In this document: positions 1 through 43,620 of the stretch, piece by piece
How positions within the stretch are numbered: the first letter of the stretch is position 1
How the letters are laid out: the number at the start of each line of letters is the position of its first letter
Assembly (NCBI GenBank): GCA_004297555.1
Contig: SCSV01000188.1
Span: forward strand, 1-43,620
DNA from: Salinibacterium sp.
GTDB taxonomy: Bacteria; Actinomycetota; Actinomycetes; Actinomycetales; Microbacteriaceae
Direction of reading: 5' to 3'
Length of the DNA: 43,620 nucleotides
Made by a program: the position numbers and the translations under genes
The notes under the pieces: model-generated
What the model saw: only the letters and a program-made list of their open reading frames with translations
Database searches by the model: none
Told to the model about the DNA's origin: nothing

Positions 1-236
1 CGTAGGCGGCGGCGTCGGCGGCGTCGGCGGCGTAGGCGTAGGCGGTGGTGGCGGCGTCGGCGGCGTCGGCGTCGGCGGTGGCGTCGGCGTAGGCGGTGGC
101 GGCGGCGTAGGCGGTGGCGGCGGCGTAGGCGGTGGCGTCGGCGGTGGCGGCGTAGGCGGCGTCGGCGGCGTAGGCGGCGTAGGCGGCGTAGGCGGTGGCG
201 GCGGCGTCGGCGGTGGCGTCGGCGTAGGCGGTCTTA
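1..236. repeat. Degenerate hexamer tandem repeat (GGCGTA/GGCGTC/GGCGGC/GGCGGT), partly repeated at 43576-43620
   Basis: Directly visible; reverse strand encodes alternating Ala-(Tyr/Asp/Ala/Thr). Confidence 0.95.
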
Positions 237-595
237 CGCGCCTTGTTGAGATCGGCCGTATCGTCGCCGGCACACCAACGCTCGATGATCGCGATGGCGT
301 CGAACACACGCTTGTCTTTGGTGTGTTTTGACGCGCGCTTGACTGCCGGCAACACCGCGCCCGCGATCACCGCGCGACGGACGGCGATGTCTGACCAATC
401 TAGGCAACGGATGCACCACATCGCGTCGGCCGCATCGTTGCTCTTGGCGATGTCGCCGAGCGACACGACGCGCTTGGGGTCGTAATCAGCGCCGGCACAC
501 CCAAGCGATGTCAGCAGCATCTTCCAGCCGCTCGCGCAGGGTGACTGGACGCGAATGTCCTTGAGAGTGAAGGTGAGGTTGGGTTGGTCTGACAT
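1..595 (-). CDS. N-terminal part of an Ala-X repeat protein (MSDQPNLTFTLKDIRVQSPCASGWKMLL...), running off the window start; continues at 43620..43492
   Basis: Open reverse-strand frame from ATG at 595, with TGGAG upstream, to position 1 without a stop. Absent from the ORF track, apparently because it is truncated. N-terminus resembles the phage 'putative immunity protein' (Imm5-like) family from memory. Confidence 0.85.
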   Translation of the reverse strand, partial: MSDQPNLTFTLKDIRVQSPCASGWKMLLTSLGCAGADYDPKRVVSLGDIAKSNDAADAMWCIRCLDWSDIAVRRAVIAGAVLPAVKRASKHTKDKRVFDAIAIIERWCAGDDTADLNKARKTAYADATADAAATAYAAYAAYAADAAYAATADATAYAAATAYAAATAYADATADADAADAATTAYAYAADAADAAAY

Positions 596-637
596 GGCGA
601 TGCGCTCCAGTGGTGATCCTGAGGCGCATCATGAATG

Positions 638-677
638 CGGTAAGTCTACCGGTCAACTAAAATCGGTAGGGCTACCG
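638..677. promoter_or_regulatory. Left operators O1 (638-651 CGGTAAGTCTACCG) and O2 (664-677 CGGTAGGGCTACCG), with leftward promoter PL (-35 TTGACC 656-651, 17-nt spacer, -10 CATGAT 633-628)
   Basis: Exact motif match and promoter-like spacing. Confidence 0.75.
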
Positions 678-989
678 AATTTTCTTTTGGCGCGGCGCAA
701 CATGCTCGGCCAAGCGCCGATCGACGATCGCGGCGACGGTTTCCTCAAGCGTTTCATCGCCGGGGAAGGCACCAGGCGGCCGCAAGAGCTCCCAGCTCGA
801 GGTATCGAGCGCCCGCGCCACATCGTCGAGGACGTCGATTGTCCAGCAGCCCTTGATCTGGCCCTTCGCATATCGGCGCAAATTGCGGATCGCATCCGGC
901 CGGCCGGCGAGATTTGACGCGCCGTTGTCGCTGAGGCGCTTTGCTTTCAGCAGTCGGTCAATGTTGGTCAGAAGGGATGCCACATCCAT
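672..989 (-). CDS. Short CI-like HTH repressor (105 aa), no peptidase domain
   Basis: MDVASLLTNIDRLLKAKRLSDNGASNLAGRPDAIRNLRRYAKGQ... resembles an XRE/lambda-type HTH; flanked by operators; divergent from the gene at 1075. Confidence 0.75.
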   Translation of the reverse strand: MDVASLLTNIDRLLKAKRLSDNGASNLAGRPDAIRNLRRYAKGQIKGCWTIDVLDDVARALDTSSWELLRPPGAFPGDETLEETVAAIVDRRLAEHVAPRQKKIR

Positions 990-991
990 GC

Positions 992-1063
992 CGGTAGAAT
1001 GACCGGAGCTTTTCGGGTGTGCATCCGGTGAGTTTACCGTTGACAGGAGCGGTAAACCTACCG
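992..1063. promoter_or_regulatory. Operators O3 (992-1005 CGGTAGAATGACCG), O4 (1026-1039 CGGTGAGTTTACCG) and O5 (1050-1063 CGGTAAACCTACCG), with rightward promoter PR (-35 TTGACA 1040-1045, 17-nt spacer, -10 GATATT 1063-1068)
   Basis: Motif repetition; TTGACA-N17-GATATT lies between and within O4/O5. Confidence 0.8.
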
Positions 1064-1074
1064 ATATTGCCGGC

Positions 1075-1314
1075 ATGACAGGCATCGAACAACTGCTATG
1101 CGTCGCTCGTCGATATGCTGAGATCGAGGGCGTTTCGCTGACCACGGTCAGCTCACGCGCGCTCAACGACGGCAAGAAGCTGTCGGCGCTCGCGGACGGC
1201 GCCGACATCAACGTCGGCCGTCTTGAGCGGACCTTGCGTTGGTTCTCCGAGAATTGGCCGGATGGCGATTGGCCCTGCGATGTGCCGCGCCCAGCCGTCG
1301 AGGCGCGCGCTTGA
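1075..1314 (+). CDS. Small Cro-position regulator-like protein (79 aa), possibly leaderless
   Basis: First rightward gene after PR; family common in phages from memory (MTGIEQLLCVARRYAEIEGVSLTTVSSRALNDGKKL...). Confidence 0.65.
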   Translation: MTGIEQLLCVARRYAEIEGVSLTTVSSRALNDGKKLSALADGADINVGRLERTLRWFSENWPDGDWPCDVPRPAVEARA

Positions 1315-2944: not shown

Positions 2945-3252
2945 GCGACGGAGCGATCAGGGGGCGCTATCCAACGCGGGCTTACGGCTACGACGGGAAA
3001 ATTCATCTCGATAGGCCGTCCCCACACGAATGGCGTGCATTTAGGATGGCTGAAGCTCGCAAGCTTGGCACGCACACCCAAGCGGAGTGGACGGAGCTTC
3101 GCGATCGGATCGGGATGTGTGTCGAGTGCGGCCGCGACGACGTGCATCTCGACAAAGACCATATCATTTCAGTGGCAGCCGGCGGATGTGATTGCATTCA
3201 CAATCTGCAGCCGTTGTGTGGTCCCTGCAATTCCCGAAAGGGCGCCACATGA
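2941..3252 (+). CDS. HNH endonuclease
   Basis: CVECGRDDVHLDKDHIISVAAGGCDCIHNLQPLCGPCNSRKG: HNH motif with CxxC pairs; TTG start. Confidence 0.85.
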   Translation: MSDGAIRGRYPTRAYGYDGKIHLDRPSPHEWRAFRMAEARKLGTHTQAEWTELRDRIGMCVECGRDDVHLDKDHIISVAAGGCDCIHNLQPLCGPCNSRKGAT

Positions 3253-4010
3253 GCCGCTGGTTTCGCCTCGACGACGACGTGATTAATGATCCAAAGATCC
3301 TGCTTTTGCCGGAAGCGATGCGCTGGATTTGGATCGCGTTTCTTTGCGTCGCGTCAAAGAACGAAGGCCGGCTGCCGCAGATCGAAATCATCGCATTGAG
3401 CTTGCGCGTCAAACAATCCAAGGCATCTGAGTATCTGGCAGCGCTCGTGAAAGCCGGTCTGATCGACCAAGATGAAACTGGATTTGCTCCGCACAACTGG
3501 GCGCGTAGACAGTTCAAATCCGACGTTTCAACAGAGCGAGTGAAACGTTTCAGGAAACAGGAACGAAACGTTTCTGAAACTCCCCCACATACACAGACAG
3601 AAACACAGACAGATAAGACCGAAGCTAACGCTTCGGGCGCTGACGCGCCGAACGATCCTCGAACTCGGCTGTTTCGCGATGGGCTGACGAAGCTGGCAGC
3701 TATGACTGGCAAGGGGGCCGACAGCTGCCGAGCGTTTGTCGGCAAGTGCCTGAAGGAGGCCGGCGACGATGCCATCGTCGTCCTTGCGGCGATCGAAGAT
3801 GCCGAGCGCAACCGCGTTGTCGATCCCTCCGCCTACATCGCCCGAACCCTGAAAGGTCGCTCCAATGGCCAATCATCCGGATCCAAAATCATTCAAGCAG
3901 CTGACGATCTCCGTCGAAAAATTGCCAGCTTCGATGGCCCAGCAAGAGCGCCTGACGAGCTACGCAGCGGACCGGGCGAGGTTGCTCCTCGGCTGCTACC
4001 GCACCGGTGA
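3249..4010 (+). CDS. Replication initiator/replisome-organiser-like protein
   Basis: N-terminal winged-helix-like MSRWFRLDDDVINDPKILLLPEAMRWIWIAFL..., position in the early operon, internal iterons. Confidence 0.6.
   Translation: MSRWFRLDDDVINDPKILLLPEAMRWIWIAFLCVASKNEGRLPQIEIIALSLRVKQSKASEYLAALVKAGLIDQDETGFAPHNWARRQFKSDVSTERVKRFRKQERNVSETPPHTQTETQTDKTEANASGADAPNDPRTRLFRDGLTKLAAMTGKGADSCRAFVGKCLKEAGDDAIVVLAAIEDAERNRVVDPSAYIARTLKGRSNGQSSGSKIIQAADDLRRKIASFDGPARAPDELRSGPGEVAPRLLPHR
3515..3640. other. Candidate replication origin: iterons, short tandem repeat and hairpin inside the initiator-like gene
   Basis: ACGTTTC at 3523, 3545 and 3568 (22-23 nt spacing), the last two inside palindromes GAAACGTTTC at 3542-3551 and 3565-3574; ACACAGACAGA at 3591-3601 and 3603-3613; hairpin CGAAGC-TAAC-GCTTCG at 3620-3635. 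Confidence 0.5.
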
Positions 4011-7860: not shown

Positions 7861-8255
7861 GCCTGCGACCTCAAACCCGCCTGGAATGGCTGCAACTCGC
7901 CTGGATGGGCTTCTGCTGCGCACTGCTATTGGCGTGCGCTGCTCTTGCGATCGTGGCCTGGCCCTACGGGCAACGCCATTATGAGCCACACCGCTACGTG
8001 TTCACCATGCCGCTGACCCAGCTCGCGTGCCTGCGCTATGCGCCAGAGGATGGAGAGACGATCCCAGATTGGGACTTCCAGCAGCCGGTCGTGATCGACG
8101 TGGAAGCCTCGCGCGCGGTCTACGTGTACGGCGGTAGGTATATCGCCTGCCCGTTCTCAGTGATCTTCCAGCTCCATGGGCTGTCCCAGCCTGATCCGGA
8201 GCGATGGGATAAGACTTTGGAGCATTTGGACAAAATCATGGACCCTTCGAAATGA
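7857..8255 (+). CDS. Hypothetical membrane protein
   Basis: N-terminal TM segment WMGFCCALLLACAALAIVAW. Confidence 0.65.
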   Translation: MSLRPQTRLEWLQLAWMGFCCALLLACAALAIVAWPYGQRHYEPHRYVFTMPLTQLACLRYAPEDGETIPDWDFQQPVVIDVEASRAVYVYGGRYIACPFSVIFQLHGLSQPDPERWDKTLEHLDKIMDPSK

Positions 8256-39387: not shown

Positions 39388-39935
39388 GGCTTCTCTCCGG
39401 ATTGGCGATGGTGTTCATTTTGAACGCGATCGGAGAAGGTTTTCCCGTGTCGGACACGGTAGACCGCGTTTTCGGAGCACTCCGCGACCTTGGCGATTTT
39501 GCTGGTTGTCATTGTCGATGGCATCGATCTGATCAGAGCAACCTGATCAGGCCTGAGAACGCCGCGGCGATTGCGCGCTTGTTCAACCTTCGTCGCCCAA
39601 CGGCAATTGTCCGGCTCGTAGTCGCCGTTGTTATCGATACGCTCGATCGAGTATTCAGGTCCGGGCCGGCGTCCCATGTCCGCAAAGAAGTTTTCGAAGC
39701 TATTCCACCGCTCGCAGACCTTGATGCCTCGGGCTCCGTACCGCGGATAATCCGGAGCAGTAGGGCTGTTGCAGCGCGAGCGCATCGCGCGCCAAGTCGC
39801 GCTCTCCCTGGTCCGGCTAAGGCCATGTTTGATCGGCTTGGGCGGATGCATTTTGATGGCGCAGGGACGACCACAATATTTGCGTGAACGCTGCCCGTTG
39901 AACTCAACCCCGCATGCCGCGCATACCTTTTTCAT
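39384..39935 (-). CDS. HNH/AP2-type endonuclease-like protein
   Basis: CxxC...; [69 protein letters not shown]. Confidence 0.8.
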
Positions 39936-40990
39936 GCGTCGGTCCTCATGCTCTCAACAGCCTTCCGCACACGCGCCTGTAGGGGCCGCCAGTCGTGTTC
40001 CTCGGTCCACGCGATCAACTTGCGGAGCTCGATCTGGTCGCTCCACGTCTTCGCCAGCAGGTCGGCATTGGTCGCGCCGAGAATGATCGTGTTCCAGCTC
40101 GTTACGTATTCGGCCGCGCTGGGGATCTCATCTGCCGCCCCGGTCTCCGGATCATGGTCCAGAGCCGGGGCGGCGGCGTCCACCGCGGGGGCTGTGCGCG
40201 GCGAAATCAGCTCCTGCGCGGAGCGCTGTTCGTGACGGATCACCGGACCGTCGGCGATCTCGCCCTCGATCTGCAATCCTCGATTTGGCTCGATCCATGC
40301 GGTCTTGCCGCGCTCCTCTACGGCTTCCTCCATCGCGGCGGCGAGGTGGAAGCGCGGATCGGCATTGAGCGGCATCGCACGGGATAGCCGACGCTTGGCC
40401 GACTTCGATGCCATCGCTGGAAAGCCAATGTGCGGATCGTTCCACGGGCTGTCGTCGCGCCGCGCTCCGGGCGACTTCGCCTTGATCGCCATGATGTCGT
40501 CGATGCCGATCACCGAAATGATCGACGGCCGGCTATTCGATGATGCGGTCGCCCATGCCCCGATGATGGGCGCGCGGTTGCCCAGCTTCGGCTTGTGTCG
40601 CACAAAGCCCTTGTCGCCGAGCTCGTAGTCGAAGGTGTCACCCTCGCGCACGACTTCGCCCTGGATTGTGAAGCCGGACCGCGCACCGAGCGTGTTCATG
40701 CCCTTGTAGCCGATGATGAGCTGCGCCTGCCCCTTGAACGGGACGAAGAACGCCTGCCCGGTGATGCCGTCGACTTCCAGCGCGAGGCACGCTGCCGACA
40801 TTGAGGCGTTGAGCAGACTCTGCCGATTGGCCTCCAAGAGCTTCGGATTGCGCTCGACCGAAATCATGATCGACCGCATCAGCCGCTCGACCGGAACCGC
40901 GCCGGCCAGCGCCTGCTCGAACCGTGGCGCCAGCGGCATCAGCGTATTCTCGAAAATCGTGATTTCAGATGCCACCGAAAGCCCCATCAA
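39932..40990 (-). CDS. recT: RecT-family single-strand annealing protein
   Basis: [50 protein letters not shown]. Confidence 0.9.
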
Positions 40991-41900
40991 TCTGTTGCGG
41001 AATGTGTGTCTTGACCGTCACCACAGTGGTCGGCTTGACGCTGTAGCCGGCACGCGCCGAGCGGCTGATCTTGACCCGGATGCCCTGTGGCAGTTCCAGT
41101 TCGTCAGCGTCCTTGATCAGCCCGAGCAGCTTGGCCTGGGTGTCCTTCTCGATCTTCTCGGCCGCCAGCCTGCAGGCGCGCTGATAATCGGTATCGACGA
41201 CGAGCTGCGCCAGCTTAGTAGCCTCAGCCTCGCCAAGAAGCTCAACGCCGTTAAGAACTTCGCCGGTCGGCTTGGCAAAGATGATCTTGAGCAACGGAAT
41301 CTCGATCGGAGATCCGAATGGCTCGGGCTCGGTACCGGCGATGACGTCATCGAAGAACTGCCGAGCCTCTGCCTCAAAAGTCTTCCACAGATCCGGCATC
41401 GGCTTGCGATGGAAATAGGTCATGTCGCCGCCGCACCAGAGCGCGATCGTGCCCCACTCATAAGGCATCACACCGTCACCGACGTACATCTGCTGCTGAA
41501 GCTGGATTTCATGCTGGCGCGGTGGCGTCTTTCCGCCGTCCCATTCCTGCATGAGCATCTTGTAGTCGAAGCAGCACTTGGTTTCGAGCGCGCCCGGCCC
41601 GCGCTGCGGATCGTAGATGTCTGCGTCGCGTGAGCAGCCGAGCAGCCCGCGCCGCATGTAGACCTGCGATCCATCGGCCTGTCGGTTGGTCTTGACCTCA
41701 AGGCGAAGGTCGGTCGCCGCTTGTTCTAACAGCAGCGGCTCCATCTTCGTACCCCAATCGAGCCGGTTGTGATCCGGGCCAGGTGCCTCGATGCCCTTGG
41801 CAAAGCGTTGGTAGAGCATCCAGCGTGTAACGTAGGGCGAGACGCCGAGCAGTCCGGACATCTCGGTCGCGCTGATGGTCTGTCGTTTCGGATCTGGCAT
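40965..41900 (-). CDS. YqaJ-family viral exonuclease
   Basis: TDLRLEVKTNRQADGSQVYMRRGLLGCSRDADIYDPQRGPGALETKCC. Confidence 0.9.
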   Translation of the reverse strand: MPDPKRQTISATEMSGLLGVSPYVTRWMLYQRFAKGIEAPGPDHNRLDWGTKMEPLLLEQAATDLRLEVKTNRQADGSQVYMRRGLLGCSRDADIYDPQRGPGALETKCCFDYKMLMQEWDGGKTPPRQHEIQLQQQMYVGDGVMPYEWGTIALWCGGDMTYFHRKPMPDLWKTFEAEARQFFDDVIAGTEPEPFGSPIEIPLLKIIFAKPTGEVLNGVELLGEAEATKLAQLVVDTDYQRACRLAAEKIEKDTQAKLLGLIKDADELELPQGIRVKISRSARAGYSVKPTTVVTVKTHIPQQIDGAFGGI

Positions 41901-43495: not shown

Positions 43496-43620
43496 GCCGC
43501 GACCTCCGCAGTCAGAGCCACGGGCGGGAAAGCCGCGATGATGTCCGCGCGCTGGTGTTCGCGTTCGGCTTTGCGGGCGGCGTCGGCGGCGTAGGCGTAG
43601 GCGGTGGTGGCGGCGTCGGC
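43492..43620 (-). CDS. C-terminal part of the same Ala-X repeat protein (ADAATTAYAYAADAARKAEREHQRADIIAAFPPVALTAEVAA*)
   Basis: Reverse-strand translation is in frame with 1..595 when the 45-nt identical segments 17-61 and 43576-43620 are superimposed; its TGA overlaps the ATG of the next gene at 43495. Confidence 0.8.
   Translation of the reverse strand, partial: ADAATTAYAYAADAARKAEREHQRADIIAAFPPVALTAEVAA

Follow-up and report, generated by a model that had tools for sequence, protein, structure and literature searches.

The locus raises the question of whether a cluster of near-identical palindromes around a gene for a 105-residue repressor forms a phage immunity region of the lambda type, and how such a switch could be run by so short a protein. 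The window, meaning the whole stretch of 43,620 nucleotides analyzed here, is one contig of a 425-contig bin, and was examined together with related phage and prophage loci.

Operators and promoters around the repressor gene

The original prediction described five copies of a 14-bp operator, CGGTA-N4-TACCG, and all five are present with the sequences and positions that it gave. O1 (OL1, CGGTAAGTCTACCG, 638–651), O2 (OL2, CGGTAGGGCTACCG, 664–677) and O5 (OR1, CGGTAAACCTACCG, 1050–1063) are exact copies, and O3 (OR3, CGGTAGAATGACCG, 992–1005) and O4 (OR2, CGGTGAGTTTACCG, 1026–1039) have one mismatch each. Allowing one mismatch, the window contains six matches, against 0.36 expected from shuffled sequences; the sixth (8132–8145) lies within an ORF. 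Across the entire bin (2,248,014 bases) O1, O2 and O5 are the only three exact matches, and 52 sites are found with at most one mismatch. At this density 0.01 sites are expected in 430 bp, and the Poisson probability of at least five is ∼8e-13. The motif is thus not equally common elsewhere in the genome, its exact copies being confined to a 430-bp stretch of 2.25 Mb. Among open-access papers, none describing this operator was found.

I scanned positions 550–1400 for promoters, which returned exactly two promoter-like sites, against 0.4 expected. PR (TTGACA-N17-GATATT, 1040–1068, forward strand) holds O5 in its spacer, with O4 adjoining its -35 element, and its -10 element ends 6 nt before the ATG of the gene in the Cro position. 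PL (TTGACC-N17-CATGAT, 628–656, reverse strand) holds O1 in its spacer, and O2 is located 7 nt upstream of its -35. The proposal that two of the sites bracket the divergent promoter was therefore loosely worded, as O4 does abut PR, but O5 lies inside it. O2 overlaps the stop codon of the repressor gene (674–672) and O3 ends 3 nt before its start codon, both as predicted.

Conservation of the layout in related phages

Relatives were reached via the Cro-position protein, and via a DNA pattern that combined PR and O5 with the final three bases of O4. The pattern leaves out O3, every OL site and the other 11 bases of O4, so that their conservation is independent evidence. The protein search recovered 20 viral contigs. 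Six of these (L005–L010, found by the Cro-like protein alone) encode short repressors of 103–126 amino acids, and most of the others examined encode a full-length S24-type CI. The DNA pattern refound these contigs plus more loci, including some from Phenylobacterium, Methylobacterium and Microvirga. Pattern matches L034/L040 and L049–L052 were discarded as chance, the rest of the architecture being absent. A scan with a CAGTA-specific pattern gave no new true locus, and with a looser pattern (102 matches) no further operator class appeared at this promoter geometry.

OR sites are found at offsets 0/-24/-58 in 19 loci, namely the window and 18 other phage or prophage loci. OL pairs, 26–28 bp apart at a PL with TTGAC and an operator in its spacer, are present in 14 of the 19; in the remaining five, the sequence is too short to judge, or a single site or none was seen. 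The predicted OL-cI-OR layout is therefore well supported, with the OR offsets repeated in every one of the 18 further loci, and the OL pair and PL in most of those whose sequence reaches there. The claim of a distinct operator sequence also stands, with the addition that the CGGTA class is not confined to the window phage, since other alphaproteobacterial loci use it with a full-length S24 CI.

The position of O2 allows another reading, in which it is primarily an intrinsic terminator of cI and not an operator: on the cI strand, 663–678 forms a 6-bp hairpin followed by TTTT, and the short loci retain a GATTT tail behind O2. However, conservation at the constant distance of 26 bp from O1 extends to the operator consensus, beyond a mere hairpin, and the OL pair stays at PL in loci where cI differs in length or is followed by an extra gene. 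I consider a primary terminator role extremely unlikely. Operator and terminator roles can coexist, and O2, which I continue to treat as OL2, may double as a weak cI terminator.

Two further features of this side of the locus were observed. Directly after the PL -10 is an inverted repeat (602–627, reverse strand). PL leaders were folded for 14 loci, drawn from L030–L045 and others, and 13 of them (the window and 12 of the other 13) have such a repeat, running from the -10 almost to the first leftward ATG. Its sequence varies between phages with the arms still complementary, and its 3' arm contains a GGAG motif in several loci; the 5' arm spans the expected discriminator, and the element may act as RNA or DNA. 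L009 and L010 possess an extra gene for a small membrane-protein-like product (90 and 83 amino acids) between cI and OL, the place of rexAB in lambda.

O3 had been interpreted as an operator on the ribosome-binding site of the repressor gene. It is better read as OR3 covering the -10 element of PRM, the promoter from which a cI mRNA, probably leaderless, would be made. Read along the cI strand, O3 is CGGT-YANNNT-ACCG, with A at position 6 and a pyrimidine (C/T) at position 5 in all 19 loci, and the YA-N3-T lies 6–8 nt from the cI ATG, again in 19 of 19. In O5, by contrast, position 6 is variable across loci and position 5 is A, a base preset by the search pattern. O3 presumably deviates from the operator consensus at exactly that base because the -10-like YANNNT is kept there. 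This element looks like a -10 box with a transcription start at or beside the cI AUG; in the window the putative PRM -10 is CATTCT (996–1001, reverse strand), 6 nt before the ATG. PRM thus probably lies within O3, and the cI mRNA probably has no leader, as in lambda. The end of the PR -10 is located 6–7 nt from the cro ATG in 17 of the 19 loci, which suggests that cro is also probably leaderless. At the level of sequence, the operators overlap core elements of all three promoters, through the spacers of PR and PL (O5, O1) and the -10-like element in O3, and autoregulation of the repressor is likely. Relative to the presumed cI start, O4 is centered ∼43.5 bp upstream, close to the position of OR2 in lambda (-42).

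The short repressor and its predicted recognition helix

The repressor gene (672–989, reverse strand) encodes a 105-residue protein, for which hhalign, Pfam, AF2 and Foldseek indicate an N-terminal HTH domain followed by a short C-terminal helix. The short repressors align with residues 1–74 of the S24 CIs (hhalign probability 98.8, E-value 1.4e-16). A Pfam Peptidase_S24 match is found in all five long homologues scanned, two of them below the Pfam cut-off, and in none of the short repressors, including that of the window, whose ORF ends at residue 105. The AF2 model has a pLDDT of 77, rising to ∼90 in the HTH. Foldseek matched this model to the DNA-binding domains of SinR, DdrO, P22 C2 and 434 Cro, and to 5d4z, a short repressor from a temperate phage of Salmonella, all with a probability of 1.0 and E-values of 0.006–0.05, none below 0.001. 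The CI-like identity proposed originally is therefore correct for the N-terminal, lambda-repressor-like HTH, which matches that of S24 CIs with the same operator, but this is not a full CI, as the C-terminal S24 peptidase and oligomerization domain of cleavable CIs is missing.

Judging from its sequence, the 105-residue protein should not be cleavable in a RecA-dependent manner: because the S24 domain is absent, RecA-stimulated self-cleavage is not expected, nor are lambda-style cooperativity and RecA-driven induction. A protein search found no close relatives of the repressor in phages and viral contigs, and a seven-member repressor alignment, searched in 394 genomes of the class, gave weak matches in two genomes besides its own.

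The divergent gene in the Cro position (1075–1314, forward strand) encodes a 79-residue protein (phrog_7669, E-value 9e-23), predicted to adopt an all-helical small DNA-binding fold, which is matched weakly. It is conceivable that the operators are mainly targets of this Cro-like protein, with the 105-residue protein a minor player or a non-functional remnant: the Cro-like protein is expected to bind the same sites, and it is the better conserved of the two (41–82% identity to the window protein, versus 22–58% for the repressors). Yet the short repressors retain the HTH motif, the start codon position and an open frame in 12 of 12 short loci, and a change in the operator tracks the repressor helix. 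Specifically, the predicted recognition helix contains [I/V]RN in loci with CGGTA operators and IQN in L009 and L010, with CAGTA-N4-TACTG-type sites, so that the change from CGGTA to CAGTA accompanies Arg35 to Gln, in a single clade. The Cro-like segment of L031 (SWRALGDTKKL), on the other hand, resembles that of the CGGTA loci L035 and L038. I therefore regard this reading as very unlikely, and retain the 105-residue protein as the candidate repressor.

In loci further removed, where the Cro family is the same and 14-mer sites recur at similar spacing, half-sites and helix residues are different, with CGGAA in L012 and L017, CGGCA in L024 and CGTGT in L016. One of these, L017, has no Arg at the corresponding helix position, and does not follow the Arg rule. 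Overall, the covariation of helix and half-site fits an operator specificity determined by the repressor. As a separate observation, L012, L016, L017, L021, L023 and L024 have two to three tandem operators of 14–16 bp before cro, with half-sites CGGAA, CGTGT, CGGCA, TTGGG and others, and are apparently heteroimmune groups built on one architecture. The CGGTA and CAGTA groups, with the distant CGGAA, CGGCA and CGTGT half-sites, form a naturally occurring series for study of the code by which repressors recognize operators, useful also for predicting immunity groups from sequence.

Trees were built for the N-terminal domain and for the Cro-position protein; in each, a single change splits short from S24 members, with weak support, a result compatible with one loss of the S24 half. 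I tentatively suggest, at slightly less than even chance, that in one lineage of alphaproteobacterial phages the lambda-type switch lost this half of CI, probably once, and kept the whole operator array, leaving a near-minimal switch run by a DNA-binding domain of ∼105 residues, which would cooperate across tandem sites by other means and respond to another induction signal.

The phage, the proposed switch and known systems

The last 45 bases of the window (43576–43620) are identical to bases 17–61, within a GGCGTC/GGCGTA repeat of low complexity. The PL operon begins with a gene (2–595, reverse strand; phrog_18326, with low-complexity Ala/Tyr/Asp repeats) that crosses this join and stays in frame over it, giving 220 amino acids with the ends joined. 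The contig is therefore probably circular, and probably a complete phage genome of ∼43.56 kb. Its module order is that of lambda. Leftward are a RecE-like exonuclease (40965–41900, reverse strand; phrog_434, E-value 9e-25) and a RecT-like annealing protein (39932–40990, reverse strand; phrog_148, E-value 3e-43), and rightward of cro are RusA-like, replication initiation (3192–4010, forward strand; phrog_3926, E-value 2e-16) and HNH genes, then terminase, head-tail adaptor, capsid and tail genes. The early right operon also includes a gene for a GapR-like DNA-binding protein (2230–2487; PF10073, E-value 1.7e-35), and other alphaproteobacterial phages match the window DNA best in the region around it, annotated there as DUF2312/UPF0335.

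The description of the immunity region as complete was an overstatement. PHROGs recognized no equivalent of N/nut or cII in the ORFs scanned, and the contig gave no match to PF00589 (integrase) or PF00239 (recombinase). The phage is possibly a plasmid-like prophage, or may have an integrase of an unrecognized type. A decayed or strictly lytic phage, whose switch has no lysogenic role, would account for the missing tyrosine integrase and resolvase families, and a circular contig points to DNA of a free replicon or a virion. However, the five operators, PR, PL and both regulatory genes are all intact. Integrase or resolvase matches, some weak, occur in eight of 13 related viral contigs, and a plasmid-like prophage would lack an integrase too. 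I thus find a lytic or decayed phage unlikely, and a temperate one the better reading.

It is very probable that this is a lambda-type temperate phage immunity region (OL-cI-OR-cro), in which a relative of CI without the S24 domain is proposed to bind the five operators. Divergent cI and cro genes have three related operators between them, and a second operator cluster (O1, O2) is located at the leftward promoter beyond cI, in the window as in its relatives. I infer that the repressor would bind the 14-bp operators as a dimer. Occupation of O5 and O4 would shut PR, and with it the cro-position and replication genes, and occupation of O1 and O2 would shut PL and the leftward operon with RecE/RecT. 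O3 lies over the putative -10 of the repressor's own promoter, so that high levels of repressor, or the Cro-like protein, could turn PRM off, and O4 is placed such that bound repressor could activate PRM. Induction, without S24 self-cleavage, would presumably depend on an antirepressor or another protease. In the window, GTTC-N7-GTTC, the alphaproteobacterial type of LexA box, is not above chance with one mismatch allowed, and no antirepressor gene is recognizable, a class of genes that cannot be recognized from sequence alone. One exact GTTC-N7-GTTC occurs at 3650–3664, within the replication gene.

Several known systems resemble this one. The repressors GfoR, GtgR and GfhR of Gifsy-1, -2 and -3 are likewise small (136 amino acids in LT2) and without a self-cleavage motif, in temperate phages with a conventional immunity region, and are inactivated by LexA-controlled antirepressors (PMC3121763). 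These are encoded outside the immunity region, whereas neither such a gene nor LexA-box enrichment was found in the window, and the likeness to this 105-residue, S24-less repressor is one by description. Among named isolates, Rhizobium phage RHph_N3_2 (MN988526) carries a homologue of the Cro-position gene (54% identity) and, divergent from it, a 141-residue ORF whose helix reads IRN. CGGTA-type sites occur at -83/-48/-24 relative to cro, and a further pair at -1416/-1387; the repressor sequence of this phage is unlike that of the window, and its proteins are annotated only as hypothetical.

Phage lambda itself shares the order of parts, operators in the PL and PR spacers, three OR sites with 24 bp between the centers of OR1 and OR2, OR3 over PRM, a probably leaderless cI, and leftward recombination and rightward replication modules. 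The window differs in its 14-bp operator sequence, in the 34 bp between OR2 and OR3, in the repressor without the S24 C-terminal domain, in the unrelated Cro-position protein, in a probably leaderless cro, and in the lack of recognizable N and cII.

Closest are the S24 CI loci L035, L037–L039, L046 (Phenylobacterium), L047 (Methylobacterium) and L048 (Microvirga), where the operator, OR spacing and PR are the same as in the window, and the N-terminal domain and Cro-position gene are homologous to it, but where the repressor retains the S24 peptidase domain. Together with the short loci these form natural pairs of switches, with the same operators and promoter spacing, with and without the oligomerization and cleavage domain of CI, and so offer a direct test of what this domain contributes to cooperativity, looping and SOS induction.
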